64,000 nt of DNA. Source: Roseicyclus sp. (GTDB taxonomy: Bacteria; Pseudomonadota; Alphaproteobacteria; Rhodobacterales; Rhodobacteraceae). The stretch lies in contig JAGYLB010000071.1 in NCBI GenBank assembly GCA_018401055.1, positions 94,126 through 158,125 on the forward strand, read 5' to 3'. The notes beneath the pieces were generated by a model, which searched no databases, had not been told where the DNA came from, and saw only the letters and a program-made list of their open reading frames with translations. The translations under genes were made by a program, and so were the position numbers. This document shows, piece after piece, positions 5,064-49,266 of the stretch. Numbering within the stretch: position 1 is the first letter of the stretch; each line of letters begins with the position of its first letter.

Positions 5064-5155
5064 GCCCCCTGCACCCGCCACGACCACGGCGCAAGGATGC
5101 GACCGGCCGAAGATGACGGGGGACGGCCCCGGCGGTGCGGCCGCAAACGTGCCCG

Positions 5156-6427
5156 ATGCTGACACCCAAGCTGCTGACCACCTTGCCGCAAAGCACGCCC
5201 AAAAGTGTGCTTGCGGATTTCATCGCGGGCGTGACCGTTGCCATGGTCGCGCTGCCGCTCAGCCTTGCCATCGCCATAGCCTCGGGGGCGGCGCCTGAAA
5301 CGGGTCTGGTGACGGCCATCGTGGCGGGCTTCTTGATCTCGCTTTTTGGCGGCAGCCGGGTGCAGATCGGCGGGCCCACGGGCGCCTTCATCGTCGTGGT
5401 CCATGGCGTCATCGCCGCGCATGGCTTTGACGGGCTGGTGCTGGCCACGCTGATGGCGGGCGTGATCTTTGGTCATCGGCGGCTTTCTCAAGGCGGGCAA
5501 CCTGATCGCGCTGGTGCCCGAGCCGGTCATCAACGGCTTTCACCATCGGCATCGCCGCGATCATCGCGCTCAGCCAATTGCCCGATGCCATGGGCATGGT
5601 CTTGCCCGAGGGCACCCCGCCGAGGCGCTGGAGCGTATCCCCGCGATGTGGGCGGCGCGCGGCACGATCAGCCTTGCCAGCCTCGCCATCGGGCTGGGCG
5701 CCATCGTGCTGATCGTGGCGCTGCGACGCCTCTTTCCACGGTTTCCGGGCCTGATCGTGGCAGTCGGCATCGTCTCGGCGGCAGTGGCGGTCTTTTCCTG
5801 CCGGTCGACACGCTGTTCGGTCGCTTCGGCGCGCTGCCCGACCGGCTGCCCCTGCCCCGCCTGCCCGAGATCACGGTGGCGCGGCTGATCGAACTGCTGC
5901 CTTCGGCGCTGATCATCGCCTTTCTGGCGGGGATCGAATCGCTGTTGTCGGCCATGGTGGCAGACCGGATGGTGGCAGGGCGTCACCGTCCGAACGCCGA
6001 GATCCTGGCCCAAGGCTTGGCCAATATCGGCTCTTCCCTCATGGGCGGTCTGCCTGCCACCGGGGCCATTGCGCGCACGGCGACGAATGTACGGGCGGGC
6101 GGGCGGACGCCGCTTGCCGGCATCTTCCATGCGGCGGTGATCCTTGGCGTGATGATGCTGGCCGCGCCTCTGGCGGGATACCTCGCCATGCCTGCGCTGG
6201 CGGGGCTGTTGCTGGTGACCGCCTGGAACATGTCGGAACCGCAGCATTGGCGCGGCTACCTGACCACGGGGCGGGTGTCGGACCGGGTGCTTCTGGTGCT
6301 GACCATGGTGCTGACGGTCTTTGCTGATCTGACGGTCGCCATCGGTGTCGGCGTGGCGCTGGGGTTGGCGCTACGATTGAGCCGCCGGGGCGTGCCGCCC
6401 GCGGACTGGACGCCGCCCGACCGGTAA
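5156..6427 (+). CDS. SulP family anion permease without STAS domain (four apparent indels)
   Basis: An inner-membrane SLC26/SulP transporter, a family that moves sulfate, bicarbonate or other anions. The N-terminus DFIAGVTVAMVALPLSLAIAIASG, the GSRVQIGGPTGAFIVVV motif and the later LIIAFLAGIESLLSAMVAD and GGLPATGAIARTATNVRAG segments are diagnostic. The frame is broken near 5468 (extra T), 5538 (extra T), 5613 (missing base) and 5796 (missing T). With these repaired a continuous ~424-residue product results. It ends just after the last membrane helix with a short RRGVPPADWTPPDR tail, so the usual cytosolic STAS domain is missing. The start could be 5156 or the in-frame ATG at 5135, and neither has a strong ribosome site. 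Confidence 0.85.
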   Translation: MLTPKLLTTLPQSTPKSVLADFIAGVTVAMVALPLSLAIAIASGAAPETGLVTAIVAGFLISLFGGSRVQIGGPTGAFIVVVHGVIAAHGFDGLVLATLMAGVIFGHRRLSQGGQPDRAGARAGHQRLSPSASPRSSRSANCPMPWAWSCPRAPRRGAGAYPRDVGGARHDQPCQPRHRAGRHRADRGAATPLSTVSGPDRGSRHRLGGSGGLFLPVDTLFGRFGALPDRLPLPRLPEITVARLIELLPSALIIAFLAGIESLLSAMVADRMVAGRHRPNAEILAQGLANIGSSLMGGLPATGAIARTATNVRAGGRTPLAGIFHAAVILGVMMLAAPLAGYLAMPALAGLLLVTAWNMSEPQHWRGYLTTGRVSDRVLLVLTMVLTVFADLTVAIGVGVALGLALRLSRRGVPPADWTPPDR

Positions 6428-39331: not shown

Positions 39332-42300
39332 TCAGCGTGGGGCTCCGGTGCCGGTTGCCGCCCGCTCGATCGCCGACATCAGGTCTTCGACCCGCAAGGG
39401 CTTGCTCACGTAATCGTCCATTCCGGCGGCCAAGTAGCGCTCCCGGTCACCCGCCATCGCGTTGGCCGTCAGGGCTACGATCCACGGTCGTCCCGATTGC
39501 AGGTCGGCCCGGATGCGCTGCGTGGCGGCAATGCCGTCGAGTTCAGGCATCTCGATATCCATCAAGACAAGGTCATATGGCTTGGCGGCACAGGCGGCCA
39601 CGGCCTCGCGCCCGTTCTCCCGCAGATCGATGTCATAGCCGAGCCGCGCAAGAACCCTGTTGCCGACCTTGCGGTTCATGGCGTTGTCGTCGACCAGCAA
39701 GATGGACAGCGGGAAACGCAGGGCGAAGCTGGCTTCCAGAGGAGCCTGAGCGGGCGCTCGGGGGAGGGCCTTTGCCGCGCCGCCCTCGATCAGCCGCACC
39801 AATGCCGCCAGAAGCTGACGCGGCTTGATCGGCTTGACGAGGAGTTCCGCCCGATCCAGACGCTCCAGCCGCAACCGTTCCTCGGGCGACAGGAGTGCTG
39901 CCGAACTGTAGAGCAGGATCGGCATGTCGCGCCCGGCCGGCATGGCGCGTAGCGCGTCGGCCAGTTCGAGCCCGGTCATTCCCGGCATCCGCATGTCGAG
40001 AATGGCGGCCGTCGGCGCGGGGCCGTCGGCGAGCAGGGCGATCGCCTCGGACGGGGTCGCTGCGTCCAGCGCCGTAGCGCCCCAGGATTGGGCATTGCGG
40101 TGCAGGATCAGGCGGTTGGTGGCGGAATCGTCGACGATTAGGAGCCGCGCTCCGGCGGGGAGGCTGCCGGTCGGAGCCGTCGCCGCGGGGGCCGCGACCT
40201 CGGCGCGCGCGCAGGGTGAAGGCAAAGATCGAGCCTTTGCCGGATTCGCTTTCGACGCGGATCGCCCCGCCCATCAGTTCCACGCAGGCGGCGGCTGATC
40301 GCAAGGCCAAGGCCGGTGCCGCCGTAGCGCCGGGTGGTTGAGGCGTCGACCTGGCTGAAGGATTTGAAGAGCCGATCCATGCGGTCGGCGGGGATGCCGG
40401 GGCCAGTATCGCGGACCGAGATCTGCAAGTCCCAGAGGGGCGCGGCAACGTGGCTGCCCGCCACCCTCGCGCCTTCAACAGTCAGCACCACCTCGCCCGC
40501 GTCGGTGAACTTGACCGCATTGTTCAGCAGGTTCAGCAAGATCTGGCTTAGCCGCGTGGAATCGACAAGGATGGCCACGGGCAGGGCCGGATCGATGACA
40601 TAGGCAAGGTCGAGCCCCTTTTCGGCCGAGCGCGACGCGATGAGGTCGAGCGAGCCCTCGATGCACTGGCGCAGGTCCGTGGGCGTCGGGTCGAGTTCCA
40701 GCTTGCCGGCCTCGACCTTGGAGAAATCGAGGATGTCGTTGATGATCCGCAACAGCGTCTCGGCGGCCTCGTCGATGGTGCCGCAAAAGTCGCGCTGTTC
40801 GGGGGTCAACTCGGTTTCCAGCATCAGCCGCGACATGCCGATGATGCCGTTCAGCGGTGTGCGGATCTCGTGGCTCATGGTGGCGAGGAAGGTGCTCTTG
40901 GCCTCGTTGGCGCTTTCGGCGGCATCCTTGGCGACGACCAGAGAGCTTTCCAATTCGCGCATGCGGGCAAGGTCGGAGGCGGTGACGGCCAGCAGCCGCT
41001 CCGTTTCCTCGACCAGGCGGGTGCGCTCCAGCGCCACGCTCATCGCGGCGGCGATGGAGGACAAAAGCCGGACGTCGTCCTCGTCGAAGGCATTCTCGCG
41101 GTCGAGGTTCTGGATCGAGATCACCCCGCGCGTCTGCCCGTCGCGGGTCAGGGGCACGAAGACGAGCGATTTCGCAGGCTCACCCTGCCGGACCGGCGGA
41201 TTGCCGTAGGCGACGCTGGCTGCCTCGACATCGCTGCCGATCAGCAGCGGCGTCCCGGTCGCAAGCACATGGGCGCGGAACCCGACGCGGGGGTAGGGTT
41301 CGTCCGGGTAGCGGATGCCGCGCTCGATCGTGTAGGGAAAGCGGAAGGCATCGGTGGCCTCGTCGTACAGGCCGATGTCCAGCACATGAGCATCGAAAAT
41401 CTCGTTGATCTTGTCGCCGACCACTTCGGAGATCTGCGCGAGGCTGAGGCCAGAGGCCAATGCCGTCTGGATGTCGGCCATGTAGGCCAGTTCGGCGTTG
41501 CGGCTTTCGGTCAGGTGCAGCAGGCGCTGCGTCTCGTCGAACAGCCGCGCGCTGCGGATCATCACGCCAAGACTGCCGCACAGCGCCTGCAACAGGCGCA
41601 CATCCACATCCGAGATCGCATAGGGGCGATAGGACTGCACGCTGACGACCCCGATGGCCACGCCATCGACCAGGATGGGGACACCAAGGTAGCTTTCGGT
41701 GACGTCTTCCTCGAACAGGAGGTAGGAGATACCGGCCTGTTCCTCCTTGGTGTGCAGAAGCACCGGCAGGCCCGTCGTCAGGACCTGCGAGGTCATCCCG
41801 AGGCCGAGGGGGAAGGGGTCTACGGTCATGTACCGGGTTTTGAAAAACGAGTAATGGACGTGGATCATCCGGGTTTCGGGATCCAGCATCAGGATTTCGG
41901 TGGCATCTGCCCTCAGGGTGTTGCGAACGCGGTCGCCCATGGCGCGGTAGACGCCGTCAAGGTCGAGACCGGCGGTCAGAACCCCTTGGATCTCGGACAG
42001 GAACTCGATCTCGCTGCGCTGGGCGCGGACGGTCTCGGCCAGCCGGGCGGTGCGGATGCCCTCGGCGGCCAGCGCAGCGACAAGGCGCCGCCGCATCGGT
42101 TTCGGCAGGGTCCAAGGGCGCTGCGGCGCGGCGGGCGACCGTCAGCACGCCGAGGTGTTCGTCCCCGGTGCCGATGGGAAGGCAGATGCCGGCAACGTCC
42201 GGCGCGTCGGCCGGACCGAAGGCCAGTTCGGTTCCGGCCTCGTTGGCCCGTTCGGCAAGCGGCGCTGTCGCGGCACGCGCGTCCTCGGCCCCCTCCGGTC

Positions 42301-42457
42301 CGCCAAGGGGCGGCAGCGGGCGCAGGCGTCCGCCTTCCACGAGATCAAGCAACAGCCAGCAGCCGGGCAGGAGACGTTTGGCCATCTCGGTCACAGGGCC
42401 GAACCGCGCGGGGATCTCGGCGGTCCGCTCATCATGCTGCGGTGTCGCCGTGTTCAT
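39332..42457 (-). CDS. Hybrid sensor histidine kinase with GAF sensors and two receivers (indels)
   Basis: A ~1040-residue kinase without membrane segments. Order: N-terminal divergent GAF region (~1-130), two GAF domains (~150-310 and ~330-490), a coiled linker, the dimerisation/phosphoacceptor box TFLATMSHEIRTPLNGIIGM, the ATPase domain (LLNLLNNAVKFTDAG, DTGPGIPADRMDRLFKSFSQVD, GGTGLGLAIS), then two receivers with acceptor aspartates in AILDMRMPGMTG and LVLMDIEMPELDG. Indels near 42090, 40295 and 40210 split the frame. Its start overlaps the stop of the EamA gene (ATGA), so it is translated with the receiver/transporter gene. Cytosolic signal sensing through the GAF domains is likely. Confidence 0.9.
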
Positions 42458-43444
42458 GGCGTGCGCTCCCTTGTAGAAGATGGGTCTGCAGGCGTCGGCT
42501 CAATTGCCATGCCTCGCGCCGCCCGTCTGCGCCTTGGTACAAAGCGCACCTCGACATCCTCGGCCTCGCGCTTGGGCCCGACCATGGCAAGCCCCACAAA
42601 GATCAGGGCCAGAGCCGTCATCGTGACGAGGCTGAGCGTCTCGTCCAAAAGCAGGATGCTCCAGCCTATGCCCGCCGCGGTCGAGACATAGCTGCCTGGC
42701 TGCCAAAGACGGCACCCGCGACCGCGATCAGGTAGACGTAGCTGACGAAGACGACCGCCGTGCGAAGACCCTGCATCACGATCAGGGCCGCGCCCTCGCC
42801 AAGGGCAGGTGACAACATAAAGACCTGTCCCGCCAAGGCCGCCACCGGCAGCGTCAGGATCGCGGAAACAAGCAGCATAATGCCCACGCCGGCAGTCGGG
42901 TCGAGCGTCGCGGGGTGCCGTTGGTCGACCAGCACATCCATCAATCCGTAAATGATGGGAATGGTGAGCGCGACCAGGATCCAGAGCCAGTCGTTCACCC
43001 CCTCCAGGCTTTCGCGGGCGACCAGCAAGACCAGCACCCCCGCCAATCCCGCCACAAGCCCCATGAAGCGCCGCGTGGACGTTTCCTCGATCCGCAAGAT
43101 GGCGGCGATCAGGAACACGGTGAACGCCTCCAGCGCCAGGATGATGGACAGCATGATGCCGGTCACCCGGCCTGCCGCCTCGAACATGATCACGGTGCTC
43201 AGACCATGCAGCACGGCCCATGCAATCAGGAAAGCCATCAGCGCGGGCGTGAACCTGCCAACCTTGCCGCGCGCGAGTGCCACCCCAAGGCACGCAAGAC
43301 CGGCCACGAAGTTGACCCAGAACGCAAGGCCCAAAGGCTGCTCGATCCGGTCATAGAGCATGATCGAGAGCGGGGCCTCCAATCCTCCCATGATCCCCAT
43401 GAACAGCAAAAGCGCAGTGCCCTTGGCGGTGCGGATGTTGCGTG
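42454..43444 (-). CDS. EamA/DMT superfamily transporter (apparently the C-terminal part of a REC-EamA fusion; one more indel)
   Basis: About ten hydrophobic helices: FMGIMGGLEAPLSIMLYDRI, LGLAFWVNFVAGLACLGVAL, VTGIMLSIILALEAFTVFL and others, with GWSILLLDETLSLVTMTALALIFVGL near the end. This is the drug/metabolite transporter fold, mediating export or uptake of small metabolites. One indel near 42700 splits the C-terminal part. The sequence before the first helix reads RNIRTAKGTALLLF without a convincing start codon or ribosome site, and it continues in frame from the receiver gene if one base is added near 43443. I therefore think the two are one ~520-residue protein. Confidence 0.8.
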
Positions 43445-44014
43445 CAGCTGGCGCTCGCGGTCGTAGACCTGTTCGGCCATGTCGCGGAACACCCGCCCCA
43501 GCCGCCCGACCGCGTCGGAGCGCGCCGCCACTTCGGTCAGACCCAGCCGGTCGGGGTGAAAGGTCGAGGATTCCATCCGCTCCGCCGCCGTGATCAGCCG
43601 GTCGACCTGCCGCAGATGGTCAAGCTCGGCCCGGCGAAGCCGCGCCTTTTCGATGCACGATTGCACCCGCGCGCGAAACACCGCGGGCTCGAACTGCTTG
43701 GGCAGGAAATCCGACGCGCCAAGCTCGATCGCCTGCGCCACGCTGTCCGCGTCGCCATCAAGCCCCGAGATGACCAGCACCGGGATCTCGGCCAGCACCG
43801 GATCGGCCTGCATGTGGCGCAACACCCCGAAGCCGTCCATCCCCGGCATCAAGATGTCGAGCAGCACGAGGTCAAGCTCGGCCCCCGCCATCTGCGCCAG
43901 AGCCGCCTCGCCAGATGCGGCCTCGGTGGCCTCAAGGCCCAGAGTGCGCAGCGCCAGCACCAGCTTTCGGCGGCTGGACGCGCTGTCATCGACGACAAGA
44001 ACCCGTGCGCCCAT
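43445..44014 (-). CDS. Response-regulator receiver domain (apparent N-terminal part of a REC-EamA fusion)
   Basis: Starts MGARVLVVDDSASSRRKLVLALRT; the phosphoacceptor aspartate is in LVLLDILMPGMDGFGVL, the conserved serine in VLVISGL, and the lysine in FLPKQFEP. The remaining ~65 residues (SCIEKARLRRAELDHLRQVD ... DMAEQVYDRERQL) form a long charged helix. There is no DNA-binding output domain. After QVYDRERQL the frame is shifted by one missing base and continues into the EamA transporter helices. It follows the HPt gene by nine bases, so HPt, receiver/transporter and hybrid kinase make one leftward operon. Confidence 0.85.
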
Positions 44015-44023
44015 GTCGGTGGC

Positions 44024-44371
44024 CTACAGGTCGAGTTCGGCGTCGAGCGCCGCGCACAGATCGGGCCAGAGCGCCAGCAGCGCCGCGACCCTTCCTGTCA
44101 TCCCGTCGGCCGGTTGCCCGGCTATCAGGTCGGCCTCGATCGCAGCGCACAGATCGGCGAAGGCGATTGCGCCGAGGTCGCGGGCATTGGACTTAAGGCT
44201 GTGTGCTGCCCGCTTGAGCGCGGTGCCGTCCCCTGACGCAGCCGCGACCTGCGCGTCGTCGAGTATCGTCTGACCTTCCTCGAAGAACCCGCGCACAAGG
44301 TCCTTGAGGTCCTCGGGGCCGCCGCCGATAAGCTTCTGAAGGGTGTCGAGAGCCTCGCGCCGGATCATCAT
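44024..44371 (-). CDS. Histidine phosphotransfer (HPt) domain protein
   Basis: A 115-residue four-helix HPt protein that carries phosphate between a hybrid kinase receiver and a final receiver. The phosphorylated histidine is in LKRAAHSLKSNARDLGA, followed by the typical FADLCAAIEADL helix. N-terminal MMIRREALDTLQKLIGG and DLVRGFFEEGQTILDDAQ are normal for the family. It is the first gene of the leftward operon with the receiver/EamA gene nine bases downstream, so the likely route is hybrid kinase to HPt to the receiver joined to the transporter. Confidence 0.9.
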   Translation of the reverse strand: MMIRREALDTLQKLIGGGPEDLKDLVRGFFEEGQTILDDAQVAAASGDGTALKRAAHSLKSNARDLGAIAFADLCAAIEADLIAGQPADGMTGRVAALLALWPDLCAALDAELDL

Positions 44372-44994: not shown

Positions 44995-46425
44995 TCAGGT
45001 CAGGGTTCGCCTACTCCCCGGCATGCTGCCGCCGCCATGGCCGGACAGCCCGCCCGAGACTTCCTCGGTCGCCTCGGCCGCAAGGTCCTTGGGCAGCAGG
45101 AGGTTCAGCACGATGGCGATCAGCGCCGCGGGCAGGATGCCCGACGTGGCCAGGACCTTGACCGTCTCCGGCAGGTACTGCAGCGCCTGCGGCTCAAGCT
45201 GCAGACCCAGACCCAGCGACAGGGAAATTGCGAAGATCACCATGTTGCGCCGGTTCCAATGCACATCCGACAGCATCGAGATACCGGCCGCGACGACCAT
45301 GCCGAACATCACGATCACGCCGCCGCCCAGCACCTCGATCGGCACCGTGGAGATGATCGCCCCCACCTTGGGCACAAGGCCGCACAAGATCAGGAAAACC
45401 GCGCCGATGGTCACGACATGGCGGCTCATCACGCCGGTCATGGCGATCAGGCCGACGTTCTGGCTGAAGGAGGTGTTGGGCAATGCGCCGAAAACGCCCG
45501 AGATGGCGGTGCCAAAGCCGTCGGCATAGGTCGCGCCCTCGATCTCGCGGTCGGTCGCTTCGCGGCCCGCGCCGCCCTTGGCGATCCCCGACACATCGCC
45601 GACGGTTTCCACCGCCGAAACGAAGGACATCAGGCAAAACCCGATGATCGCCGCGACCGAGAATTCAAGCCCGAAATGGAAGGGATCGGGCAAGGCCACG
45701 ACCGCCGCGCGCCCGACCGCTGCGAAACTGACCATGCCGAAAGCCCATGCCACCGCATAGCCCGCCAGCAGGCCGATCAGAACCGCAGAGACCGAAAGCA
45801 TCCCGCGCGCGAAGAACTTGAGGCCCAGCGTCGCCACGATCACGGTGCCCGCGACGGTCCAGTTCTGCAGGCTGCCATATTCGGGGGTGCCGATGGCGGG
45901 GACGCCGCCCGCGGCATACTGGATGCCGACCTTGACCAGCGCCAGCCCGATCATCATCACCACCAGCCCGGTCACCAGCGGTGGCAGCGCAAAGCGGATC
46001 TTGCCGATAAACAGCCCGAGCACGGCATGAAACAGGCCGCCCACCAGCACGCCGCCCATCAGGACCGACATCGCCTCCACGCCCTGGCCCGCGACCAGCG
46101 GGATCATGATCGGGATAAAGGCGAAGGATGTGCCCTGCACGATCGGCAGGCGCGCGCCCACCGGGCCGATGCCGACGGTCTGGAACAGGGTGGCAATGCC
46201 CGCAAAGAACATCGACATCTGGATCATGTAGATCATCTCGGGGAAATCGGGCGAGTTCGACCCGAAGCCGAAGCCTGCCGCCCCGCAAACGATGATCGCG
46301 GGCGTCACGTTCGAGACGAACATCGCCAGCACGTGCTGAATGCCCAGCGGCACGGCCTTGACCAGCGGTGGGGTGTAGTTGGGATCGCGGAGCTGCTCCG
46401 GCGTCCCGATGGACCTGTCTGCCAT
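44995..46425 (-). CDS. NCS2 family nucleobase:cation symporter (xanthine/uracil permease)
   Basis: A 476-residue membrane protein with about fourteen helices importing purine bases or urate with a cation. The N-terminus has PLVKAVPLGIQHVLAMFVSN (the QH motif), the middle holds FGLEFSVAAIIGFCLMSFVSAVETVGD and the signature GVFGALPNTSFSQNVGLIAMTGV. These residues and the neighbouring puuD, hiuH, puuE-uraD and allE genes point to urate, xanthine or a related purine as substrate. The start is the ATG at 46425 after GGAGG. A hairpin lies between it and allE, the upstream gene in the same direction. Confidence 0.92.
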   Translation of the reverse strand: MADRSIGTPEQLRDPNYTPPLVKAVPLGIQHVLAMFVSNVTPAIIVCGAAGFGFGSNSPDFPEMIYMIQMSMFFAGIATLFQTVGIGPVGARLPIVQGTSFAFIPIMIPLVAGQGVEAMSVLMGGVLVGGLFHAVLGLFIGKIRFALPPLVTGLVVMMIGLALVKVGIQYAAGGVPAIGTPEYGSLQNWTVAGTVIVATLGLKFFARGMLSVSAVLIGLLAGYAVAWAFGMVSFAAVGRAAVVALPDPFHFGLEFSVAAIIGFCLMSFVSAVETVGDVSGIAKGGAGREATDREIEGATYADGFGTAISGVFGALPNTSFSQNVGLIAMTGVMSRHVVTIGAVFLILCGLVPKVGAIISTVPIEVLGGGVIVMFGMVVAAGISMLSDVHWNRRNMVIFAISLSLGLGLQLEPQALQYLPETVKVLATSGILPAALIAIVLNLLLPKDLAAEATEEVSGGLSGHGGGSMPGSRRTLT

Positions 46426-46472
46426 GGTGTTTCCTCCCTTGTGTGGCGCCCCGGCACGCGGGGCCGTCGTGT

Positions 46473-46505
46473 GACGGGGTCCGGCTCCTCCTTCCGGGCC
46501 CCGTC
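46473..46505 (-). promoter_or_regulatory. 12-bp hairpin between allE and the NCS2 permease gene
   Basis: The arms GACGGGG..CCGG and CCGG..CCCCGTC pair with one G-U and leave the loop CTCCTCCTT. No T-run follows on the minus strand. It may partly stop or protect the transcript leaving allE, adjusting expression of the permease. Confidence 0.5.
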
Positions 46506-46517
46506 GCGGGTATCGTC

Positions 46518-47355
<838 letters not shown>

Positions 47356-47359
<4 letters not shown>

Positions 47360-48777
47360 GCGGGCAACAGGTCCATAATGCGGTGGCGAGCGATGCGTTC
47401 GACCTGGCGGCAGGCCTCGGCGAATTCGGTGTCGCGGGAGTTCTCCAGCCGCGCCTCGAAGGCCTGCAGGATACCCGCCTTGTCGTGGTCGCGGACCGCG
47501 ATGATGAAGGGGAAGCCGAAGCGCGCGACATAGCGGGCGTTCAGGTCGGTGAAGGTCGCGCGCTCTGCGTCGGTCAGGGCGTCAAGGCCCGCGCTGGCCT
47601 GTTCGGTGGTTGACTCGGGCGTCAGGCGTCGCGCCGCCGCCAGCTTGCCCGCAAGGTCCGGATGCGCCGTCAACACGCCCAGCCGATCACGATCCTCGGC
47701 CATCCGGAACACGCGCGTCAACGCCGCATGAAGCCCGCGCGCAGTGTCGTTCGCCGCGCCGATCCCCTCGTCCCAGGCCTGCTCCGCGATCCAGGCCGAA
47801 TGCTCGAAGATGCCGCCGAAACGCTCCACGAAACCCGCGCGGGGCAGCTCGGACGGGATCAGCGCCGGGCGCCGCGGCGGATGGGTGCGGGCCCAGTGCT
47901 CCGCGATGTCGATGCGACGCGCGATCCAGACCCCTTCGAACCCCTCGATATAGTCGAGAAAGCGGCGCAGCGCCGCGATGCGTCCCGGCCGCCCGATCAG
48001 GCGACAATGCAGACCGATCGACAGCATCTTGGGCGCGCCGCGAAAGCCTTCGTCGTAAAGCGTGTCGAAACTGTCGCGCAGGTAGGTCTCGAACTGGTCG
48101 CCCGCGTTGAACCCTTGCGCCGTTGCAAAGCGCATGTCGTTGGCGTCGAGCGTATAGGGAATGACCAACTGGTCACGCTCGCCTACGCGCAGCCAATAGG
48201 GCAGATCATCGGCATAGCTGTCCGAGACATAATCAAAGCCGCCATGTTCGCCGATCAGCCGCACGGTGTTCATCGAACAGCGCCCGGTATACCAGCCGCG
48301 CGGGGCCTGCCCGGTGACGGCTGTGTGCAGGCGTACAGCTTGGGCGATGCTCGCGCGTTCCTCGGCCTCGGTCATGTCCTTGTGCTCGACCCATTTCAGA
48401 CCGTGGCTGGCGATTTCCCACCCGGCGTCCTGCATCGCGGCCACCTGATCGGGGCTGCGGGCCAGCGCGGTGGCCACGCCAAAGACCGTCACGGGCAGAT
48501 TGCGCTCGGTGAAAAGCGCATGCAGCCGCCAGAACCCCGCCCGCGCGCCATATTCGTAGATCGATTCCATGTTCCAATGGCGCTGTCCGGGCCAGGCCTG
48601 CGCCCCCACGATCTCGCTCAGGAAGGCCTCGGAGGCCGGATCGCCGTGGAGCGTGCAATTCTCGCCGCCCTCCTCGTAATTCAGGACGAACTGCACCGCG
48701 ATGCGGGCCCCGCCGGGCCAGTTGGCCATGGGCGGTTGCCCTGCATATCCCCTGAGGTCGCGTGGATAGACTGCCAA
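47356..48777 (-). CDS. Fused allantoinase (PuuE type) and OHCU decarboxylase (UraD), copy 2
   Basis: A ~473-residue bifunctional enzyme laid out as copy 1: VLNYEEGGENCTLHGD, NMESIYEYGARAGFWRL, IASHGLKWVEHKDM and GWYTGRCSMN for allantoinase; AHPDLAGKLAAARRL, STTEQASAGLDALTDAE and ARFGFPFIIAVRD for the decarboxylase. The two copies are similar but clearly diverged. The start is probably a TTG at 48777, seven bases after GGGGAGG, where the conserved AVYPRDLRGYAG follows. A GTG at 48798 is the alternative. It is divergent from hiuH copy 2 with ~145 bases between. Confidence 0.92.
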
Positions 48778-48828
48778 GGTGATCCTCCCCGAAATCACCT
48801 TATGGATAAACCAAGGTGAAAAACCGGT

Positions 48829-48849
48829 CTTTCAAACGAATCTTGAAAG
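48829..48849. promoter_or_regulatory. Inverted repeat CTTTCAA-N7-TTGAAAG in the puuE-uraD/hiuH divergent promoter
   Basis: Seven-base perfect arms with a seven-base spacer lie between the divergent starts. A second pair, CACCTT/AAGGTG with an 11-base spacer, is at 48796-48818. Either could bind the LysR regulator encoded nearby or another purine regulator. Copy 1 has no similar repeat. Confidence 0.4.
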
Positions 48850-48921
48850 TGTTTCGCGATGTCCGCGCTTCTGGCCAGCGCGGGGCTGCGGCACACGGAG
48901 GACAGAGATGGAGAGCGCGCG

Positions 48922-49266
48922 ATGACCGGATACCTGACCACCCATGTCCTCGACACCGCCCGCGGGATGCCAGCCAGCGGGATGCGGGTCCGGCTCTATA
49001 GGCTGGACGGCGACCACCGCGAAGGGCTGGCCGACATGATCACAAATGCCGATGGCCGGACGGACACGCCCATCCTGCCCGCCGATGCCTTCGCGCCGGG
49101 CGAGTATGAGCTGATCTTCGCGGCCGGTGACTATCTGCGTTCGTTGCAAGCGCCCGACGGCTTTCTCGACCTGATCCCGCTGCGGTTCCGAATGGACGAG
49201 GCCGCGCATTACCACGTGCCGCTGCTGCTTTCGCCCTTCGGCTATTCCACCTACAGGGGCAGCTGA
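48922..49266 (+). CDS. hiuH: 5-hydroxyisourate hydrolase, copy 2
   Basis: A 114-residue transthyretin-like enzyme, starting MTGYLTTHVLDTARGMPASG, with ITNADGRTDTPILP in the arginine region, HYHVPLLLSPFGYSTYRGS at the end and the conserved final YRGS. It supplies OHCU to the UraD domain encoded divergently. The start at 48922 follows GGAGAG. Its last 16 bases overlap the 3' end of the convergent lysR gene, a layout mirrored at apt. Copy 1 at 27.2 kb differs in the middle loop, so this is an old duplication or separate acquisition. Confidence 0.93.
   Translation: MTGYLTTHVLDTARGMPASGMRVRLYRLDGDHREGLADMITNADGRTDTPILPADAFAPGEYELIFAAGDYLRSLQAPDGFLDLIPLRFRMDEAAHYHVPLLLSPFGYSTYRGS

Follow-up and report, generated by a model that had tools for sequence, protein, structure and literature searches.

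The operon in the window

The window analysed here, a stretch of 64,000 nucleotides from Roseicyclus sp., harbors a leftward operon encoding an HPt protein, a receiver followed by a linker, an EamA transporter and a hybrid kinase. A locus of Roseicyclus mahoneyensis DSM 16097 (L001) served as reference for this operon. Its features are:

44024..44371, minus strand: HPt phosphotransfer protein of 115 aa, containing HSLKSNARDLGA (Pfam Hpt, 3.7e-12)
43440..44014, minus strand: receiver domain (residues 1-122) of the fusion protein, with linker (Pfam Response_reg, 1.1e-23)
43440..43620, minus strand: HAMP-like linker from the receiver to the first membrane helix, limits approximate (hhalign)
43443..43443, minus strand: single-base frameshift between receiver frame and transporter frame, place approximate, not in L001 (DNA alignment to L001)
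42454..43433, minus strand: EamA (DMT) transporter domain of the fusion protein, with a second single-base frameshift at ~42692 (Pfam EamA, 8.8e-8)
39332..42457, minus strand: hybrid histidine kinase GAF-GAF-HisKA-HATPase-REC-REC, with three frameshifts (Pfam and alignment to L001)

Gene order and junctions are those given in the initial annotation: nine bases separate the HPt stop (44024) from the receiver ATG (44014), and the transporter stop (42454) and the kinase ATG (42457) form a 4-base overlap. Pfam identifies GAF, HisKA, HATPase_c and two Response_reg stretches in the kinase. The annotation had also held that no credible start lies between receiver and transporter. This proved right, because the EamA frame, followed from its upstream stop at 43622 to position 43409, contains a single ATG, GTG, TTG or CTG codon, the TTG at 43409, which falls within the first membrane helix of EamA.

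Intact receiver-EamA fusions in other genomes and on plasmids

At the R. mahoneyensis locus, one frame of 520 residues spans receiver and EamA and is located between the HPt gene and a kinase gene of 1040 aa. A Rhodobacteraceae MAG harbors a second intact fusion of ~500 aa with 68% identity. Proteins joining REC and EamA in one chain of ~500-530 residues, whose presence in databases the initial annotation had left to a search, do exist: they are found intact in genomes, in the MAG and on sequenced plasmids, each with a hybrid kinase sequence in the locus. In total, the fusion was detected in 12 genomes (G001, G002, G033, G237, G246, G252, G271, G282, G333, G420, G529 and G1507) and on three Mesorhizobium plasmids. 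Two of the genomic copies are damaged, the receiver end being cut in G271 and the EamA frame shifting in G1507.

These occurrences come from sampled genomes, a single contig scan and the records of plasmids. Since only the best 3-5 candidates per genome were scored in the large samples, the sample counts are lower bounds. The fusion was present in 8 of 394 genomes of the family sample (E <= 1e-60) and 9 of 292 of the order sample (E <= 1e-45), seven of them common to both, as well as in 1/13 of the genus sample. The class sample yielded one fusion in 385 genomes, namely in G001, the other 37 genomes with a match being hit through the receiver alone or EamA alone. All three fusions among 398 genomes of the phylum sample were among those already found, and sampling the order of Bradyrhizobium BTAi1 gave 1/337. 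For the best 80 of 545 relatives in the contig scan, two cover both domains and the listed query ranges of the other 78 lie inside residues 1-182. Among 72,556 plasmid records three carry the fusion, all from Mesorhizobium, with 42% identity over 95% of the query. Both Mesorhizobium plasmids that were opened show the order GAF kinase (1280 aa), HPt, receiver-EamA (530 aa), with domains assigned by Pfam on one of them. As the three Mesorhizobium fusion proteins are annotated as "response regulator" and nothing more, the architecture is easily overlooked. No relative of the fusion was found in the phage records and viral contigs searched.

Several loci deviate from a single fusion gene. Three receiver-EamA genes, the third one broken, lie in G246 (locus L094, 8498-17181), perhaps reflecting several transporters per relay, and G282 harbors two in convergent orientation. 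The receiver-truncated fusion of G271 is flanked by two 388-aa ORFs in opposite orientation that share their first 50 residues (L093, 6759-7925 and 13514-14680), suggestive of insertion-sequence copies. On Mesorhizobium plasmids (L147 and L148, 11667-12692; Pfam for L148), a D-2-hydroxyacid dehydrogenase gene follows the fusion, which is a possible hint at a substrate.

Frameshifts in the window operon

Window operon and R. mahoneyensis locus share 88.4% DNA identity (4453 of 5037 aligned bases), and the DNA alignment reveals five single-base frameshifts in the window. Two are in the receiver-transporter gene (~43443 and ~42692) and three in the kinase gene (~42089, ~40285 and ~40205). The first confirms the missing base near 43443 that had been proposed from the window itself; the remaining four had escaped the initial annotation. 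The adjoining ureidoglycine aminohydrolase gene (46518-47359), which together with the operon received close scrutiny in this comparison, is likewise divided between two frames. With five frameshifts across the operon and a neighboring enzyme gene broken in the same way, sequence (indel) noise is the likeliest cause, rather than biology.

Between window and L001, dN/dS amounts to 0.17 for HPt, 0.08 for the receiver, 0.02 for the linker, 0.16 for most of EamA, 0.29 for the last part of EamA and 0.05 for the GAF-GAF-kinase part of the kinase. These low ratios speak against a decaying cassette in this strain, as do the broken enzyme gene next to the operon and the fact that the pieces read contain stop codons only after a frame change. 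Decay is rather improbable, even though five frameshifts fall within 5 kb, occurrence is patchy with 1/13 genomes in the genus of R. mahoneyensis, and damaged copies exist in G246, G271 and G1507. It is scarcely credible that receiver and transporter form two separate genes in the window organism and that the fusion was over-read. The window letters do shift frame at this point, but relatives contain intact single-frame fusions, the first membrane helix has no start codon ahead of it, and frameshifts are scattered through the operon and the adjoining enzyme gene; for the family, separate genes are already refuted.

Synonymous divergence across 39332-44371 is uneven between window and L001, with dS of ~0.25-0.28 in receiver, linker and kinase, 0.61 in HPt and 0.82 in most of EamA, as if parts had been exchanged through recombination. 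At 5135-6427 of the window, SulP/DauA-like transporter matches occur in pieces and below curated cut-offs, perhaps marking another frameshifted gene.

Receiver and linker

An alignment of 12 fusions from ten genomes, compared end to end, and a thirteenth from Mesorhizobium was used to assess the receiver; the window, the cut G271 copy, the interrupted G1507 copy and the broken third G246 copy stand outside it. Residues D9, D10, D53, P57, S83 and K106 are identical in all 13 aligned intact fusions, and the window reading contains equivalents of D9, D10, D53, S83 and K106. These residues include the marks of a CheY-like receiver, namely the acidic pair, the phospho-acceptor Asp and the Ser/Thr and Lys switch residues. 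L002 is 68% identical to L001, and the other ten fusions of the end-to-end alignment are 34-40% identical to it. PleD is the best PDB match of the receiver. Fourteen loci with receiver-only relatives in the class sample were examined, and in the five with a clear frame the output behind the receiver is a cyclase (4/5) or PAS-GGDEF-EAL (1/5). Judged by its place in the predicted chain, the EamA domain is in the output-domain position behind the receiver.

When the linker was searched in 149 genomes of the family, 11 had a match at E <= 1e-3, comprising two known fusions and nine weak hits. Six of the weak loci were translated, yielding a sensor kinase around the match in L137, L138, L139 and L142, which we take to be ChvG-like, and other frames in L136 and L140. 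Pfam places a HAMP domain at the linker-matching position of L139, and below cut-off in L138. Compared by hhalign, the 12 linkers reach a probability of 97.1 (E 6e-11) with the four ChvG-like HAMP segments, themselves found by the linker, and one of 2.9 with six HAMP segments taken from the kinases of the modules themselves. As Pfam, run at E up to 10, recognises no HAMP domain in the linkers of L001 and L002, we term the linker HAMP-like only; its sequence seems to resemble one HAMP subtype.

EamA domain

Pfam EamA scores (cut-off 28.2 bits) are 33.0 for the window, 36.8 for L001, 52.0 for the second copy of L095, 72.9 for L097 and 68.2 for the Mesorhizobium fusion. Pfam reports only Response_reg and EamA on the fusions scanned, and thus no SLC5-STAC-kinase chain of the CbrA type. 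Simple hydropathy analysis yields 10 hydrophobic segments in 4 of 12 fusions, and 9 with one long loop left over in the other eight. In 12/12 fusions, the odd-numbered helices among the first six are preceded by more positive charges in total than the even-numbered ones. The N-terminus is therefore predicted to be inside and the receiver to be in the cytoplasm, where HPt is expected.

Fused EamA domains share 20 invariant columns over 12 sequences (31-38%, one 65%, identical to the first). A midpoint-rooted tree, in which one stand-alone row sits on a long branch, places 13 fused EamA domains in one clade with 100/100 support; the 20 stand-alone domains outside it represent the usable matches in L083 and L103-L131. 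This separation fits a single origin of the fused domains. L001, L002 and the Mesorhizobium fusion form a group (88/85); the kinases of Mesorhizobium and L001 in this group are of the GAF type, while the L002 kinase is cut off. A profile of fused EamA domains retrieved no PDB chain up to E = 1, and an AlphaFold2 model of the fusion from two sequences was too poor (mean pLDDT 46.3).

The constraint on this domain bears on the possibility that EamA serves chiefly to anchor the protein in the membrane, or that the receiver is a phosphate sink, with transport being constitutive. Stand-alone receivers can indeed act as phosphate sinks. The 20 invariant columns and a dN/dS of 0.16-0.29 against L001, however, suggest constraint beyond what an anchor would seem to need, and we regard this possibility as quite improbable.

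Conserved kinase and HPt genes

A hybrid kinase sequence is present in the fusion locus of all 12 genomes, identified by Pfam in 10 and by tblastn in G002, where the C-terminal receiver lies convergent at the contig end (58% to the L001 kinase), and in G1507 (46%). A hybrid kinase is also part of the fusion locus on the Mesorhizobium plasmids. HPt was found in 11/12 genomes, as a separate gene in 10 and within the kinase in G420; no HPt match was obtained in G271. Window and L001 share the order HPt, fusion, kinase, and most other loci are arranged as kinase, HPt, fusion.

Eight genomes encode a kinase whose HAMP domain follows an apparent transmembrane sensor, and six of these eight loci have a solute-binding protein gene nearby according to Pfam, of the DctP family in G033, G237 and G529 and of the SBP_bac_3 type in G252, G420 and G333 (in the latter convergent and beyond the fusion). 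In G246 and G282, a secreted-looking protein adjoins the kinase. Neither of the two has a Pfam match at E up to 10, that of G282 has no PDB match up to E = 1, and hhalign comparison with SBP_bac_3 proteins gives a probability of 11, so that no test placed them. Five kinases have a TorS_sensor_domain match, which exceeds the cut-off in four of them, and two have a CHASE5 match, which is at the cut-off in one and below it in the other. Among the neighbors seen at the GAF-type loci (window, L001 and Mesorhizobium) there is no such binding protein, and no TRAP or ABC permease gene was noticed directly beside the binding proteins among the selected neighbors scanned.

In G420, the HPt-bearing kinase and the convergent receiver-EamA gene have a stand-alone receiver between them (L133, 6446-6808). 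Apart from this, no further response regulator gene was noted in fusion loci among the selected neighbors scanned. DNA-binding proteins devoid of a receiver occur as GerE adjoining the fusion in G252 and as Trans_reg_C near the fusion in G282.

Mobility and flanking regions

Similarity between window and L001 ends at the operon edges, 39332 and 44385. Upstream, the window contains purine-breakdown genes and L001 a DeoR-type regulator. The purine-breakdown cluster (44995-49266) includes a xanthine/NCS2 permease and the following genes:

46518-47359: ureidoglycine aminohydrolase, split between two frames
47356-48798: PuuE allantoinase with C-terminal OHCU decarboxylase domain
48859-49266: hydroxyisourate hydrolase

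A tie between the operon and these adjoining genes was considered and dropped, since the similarity to L001 stops at the operon edges and a DeoR-type regulator is found upstream there. Genes for a relaxase and TraG are located within 10 kb of the fusion in Mesorhizobium loti NZP2037; plasmid typing classifies all three Mesorhizobium plasmids as non-mobilizable. A moving cassette would be the simplest account of the module.

Proposed relay and its rivals

We propose, with a probability of roughly 0.6, that the products of the operon form a multistep phosphorelay ending in a response regulator in which a HAMP-like linker connects the receiver to an EamA/DMT transporter, and that transport is switched by receiver phosphorylation. 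Sequence support for the phosphorelay comes from the single chain in relatives, the complete set of phosphorylation residues, the predicted cytoplasmic position of the receiver and the conserved linkage to hybrid kinase and HPt. The structural side of what the initial annotation proposed therefore has good support, and its functional side, that phosphorylation would gate the transporter directly, is the best inference.

Beyond gene content and residues, we infer the following steps. A signal would trigger autophosphorylation of the hybrid kinase, which is of the GAF type in the window; in most relatives, sensing would be carried out by a HAMP-bearing kinase whose sensor is TorS-like or CHASE5-like and whose locus often includes a solute-binding protein gene. 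Phosphate would then pass from the kinase's own receivers via HPt to D53 of the receiver-EamA protein, where the state of the receiver would move the linker and the first membrane helix. Small-metabolite transport could in this way be switched without new gene expression. A more extended proposal, to which we give somewhat less than an even chance, is that the relay ends directly in the membrane transporter: an outside solute or a cytoplasmic signal would be sensed by the hybrid kinase, probably together with a binding protein in many relatives, EamA would open or close within the time of phosphotransfer via a HAMP-like element working from cytoplasm to membrane, and the cassette would move among Rhodobacterales and Hyphomicrobiales.

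The main rival assigns EamA to the input side, as a membrane sensor or transceptor whose ligand state sets the acceptance or drainage of phosphate by the receiver, the true output being elsewhere. The extra stand-alone receiver of G420 could be such an endpoint there, and G252 and G282 have possible DNA-binding partners near the fusion. But the relay already has sensors of its own, either GAF or a periplasmic-type sensor domain with a nearby solute-binding protein, a receiver usually serves as input to the output protein that carries it, and G420 is the only locus for which the scan of selected neighbors noted a further response regulator gene. We consider a sensory EamA unlikely. A precedent in its favor is CbrA, a transporter-kinase fusion whose autokinase activity appears to be modulated by the SLC5 domain (PMC7096432).

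Relation to known systems

CbrA, CrbS and RpuS are SLC5-STAC transporter-histidine kinase fusions (PMC7096432, PMC13022988, PMC5715377, PMC9100948). Histidine transport by CbrA is not significantly affected by the kinase domain (PMC7096432), and CbrA has been called a rare transceptor (PMC13022988). Like the protein described here, these fusions combine a transporter fold and a two-component module in one polypeptide, but there the kinase carries the transporter, via STAC and at the head of the pathway, whereas here the receiver carries a transporter of another family, EamA, via the HAMP-like linker and at the presumed bottom. By analogy, CbrA is the mirror arrangement of the receiver-EamA fusion.

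With PleD, REC-cyclase and REC-GGDEF-EAL proteins the fusion shares an N-terminal receiver with canonical residues, but its output is a multi-helix membrane transporter instead of an enzyme or a DNA-binding domain. TorT/TorS-type systems consist of a solute-binding protein (TorT) and a hybrid kinase, with TorR as regulator. A similar sensor, the TorS_sensor_domain, is found in the kinases of L096, L097, L132 and L133 (above Pfam cut-off) and of L099 (just below), each beside a solute-binding protein gene; in contrast to TorT/TorS, HPt is a separate gene in four of these five loci and the final receiver is located on a transporter, not on a DNA-binding regulator. EamA/DMT transporters include YddG and RhtA, which the fusion resembles in its Pfam EamA match and 9-10 hydrophobic segments and from which it differs by the N-terminal receiver and linker.

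The known targets of response regulators are DNA, second messengers, RNA or proteins. In the open-licence PMC literature, covered mostly at listing level, neither a receiver-EamA protein nor a response regulator with transporter output was found described. One paper names the two families separately, and PMC12918730 concerns a different system. We place the fusion among the response regulators, its output being of a new sort.

Small in size, the gene set is found in plant symbionts as well as in a type strain, and it makes clear predictions for D53 mutants. If the proposed relay holds true, a receiver acting on the transporter to which it is fused would switch small-molecule flux post-translationally, directly under a sensor kinase, and would offer a natural handle on how a cytoplasmic signal drives a transporter.
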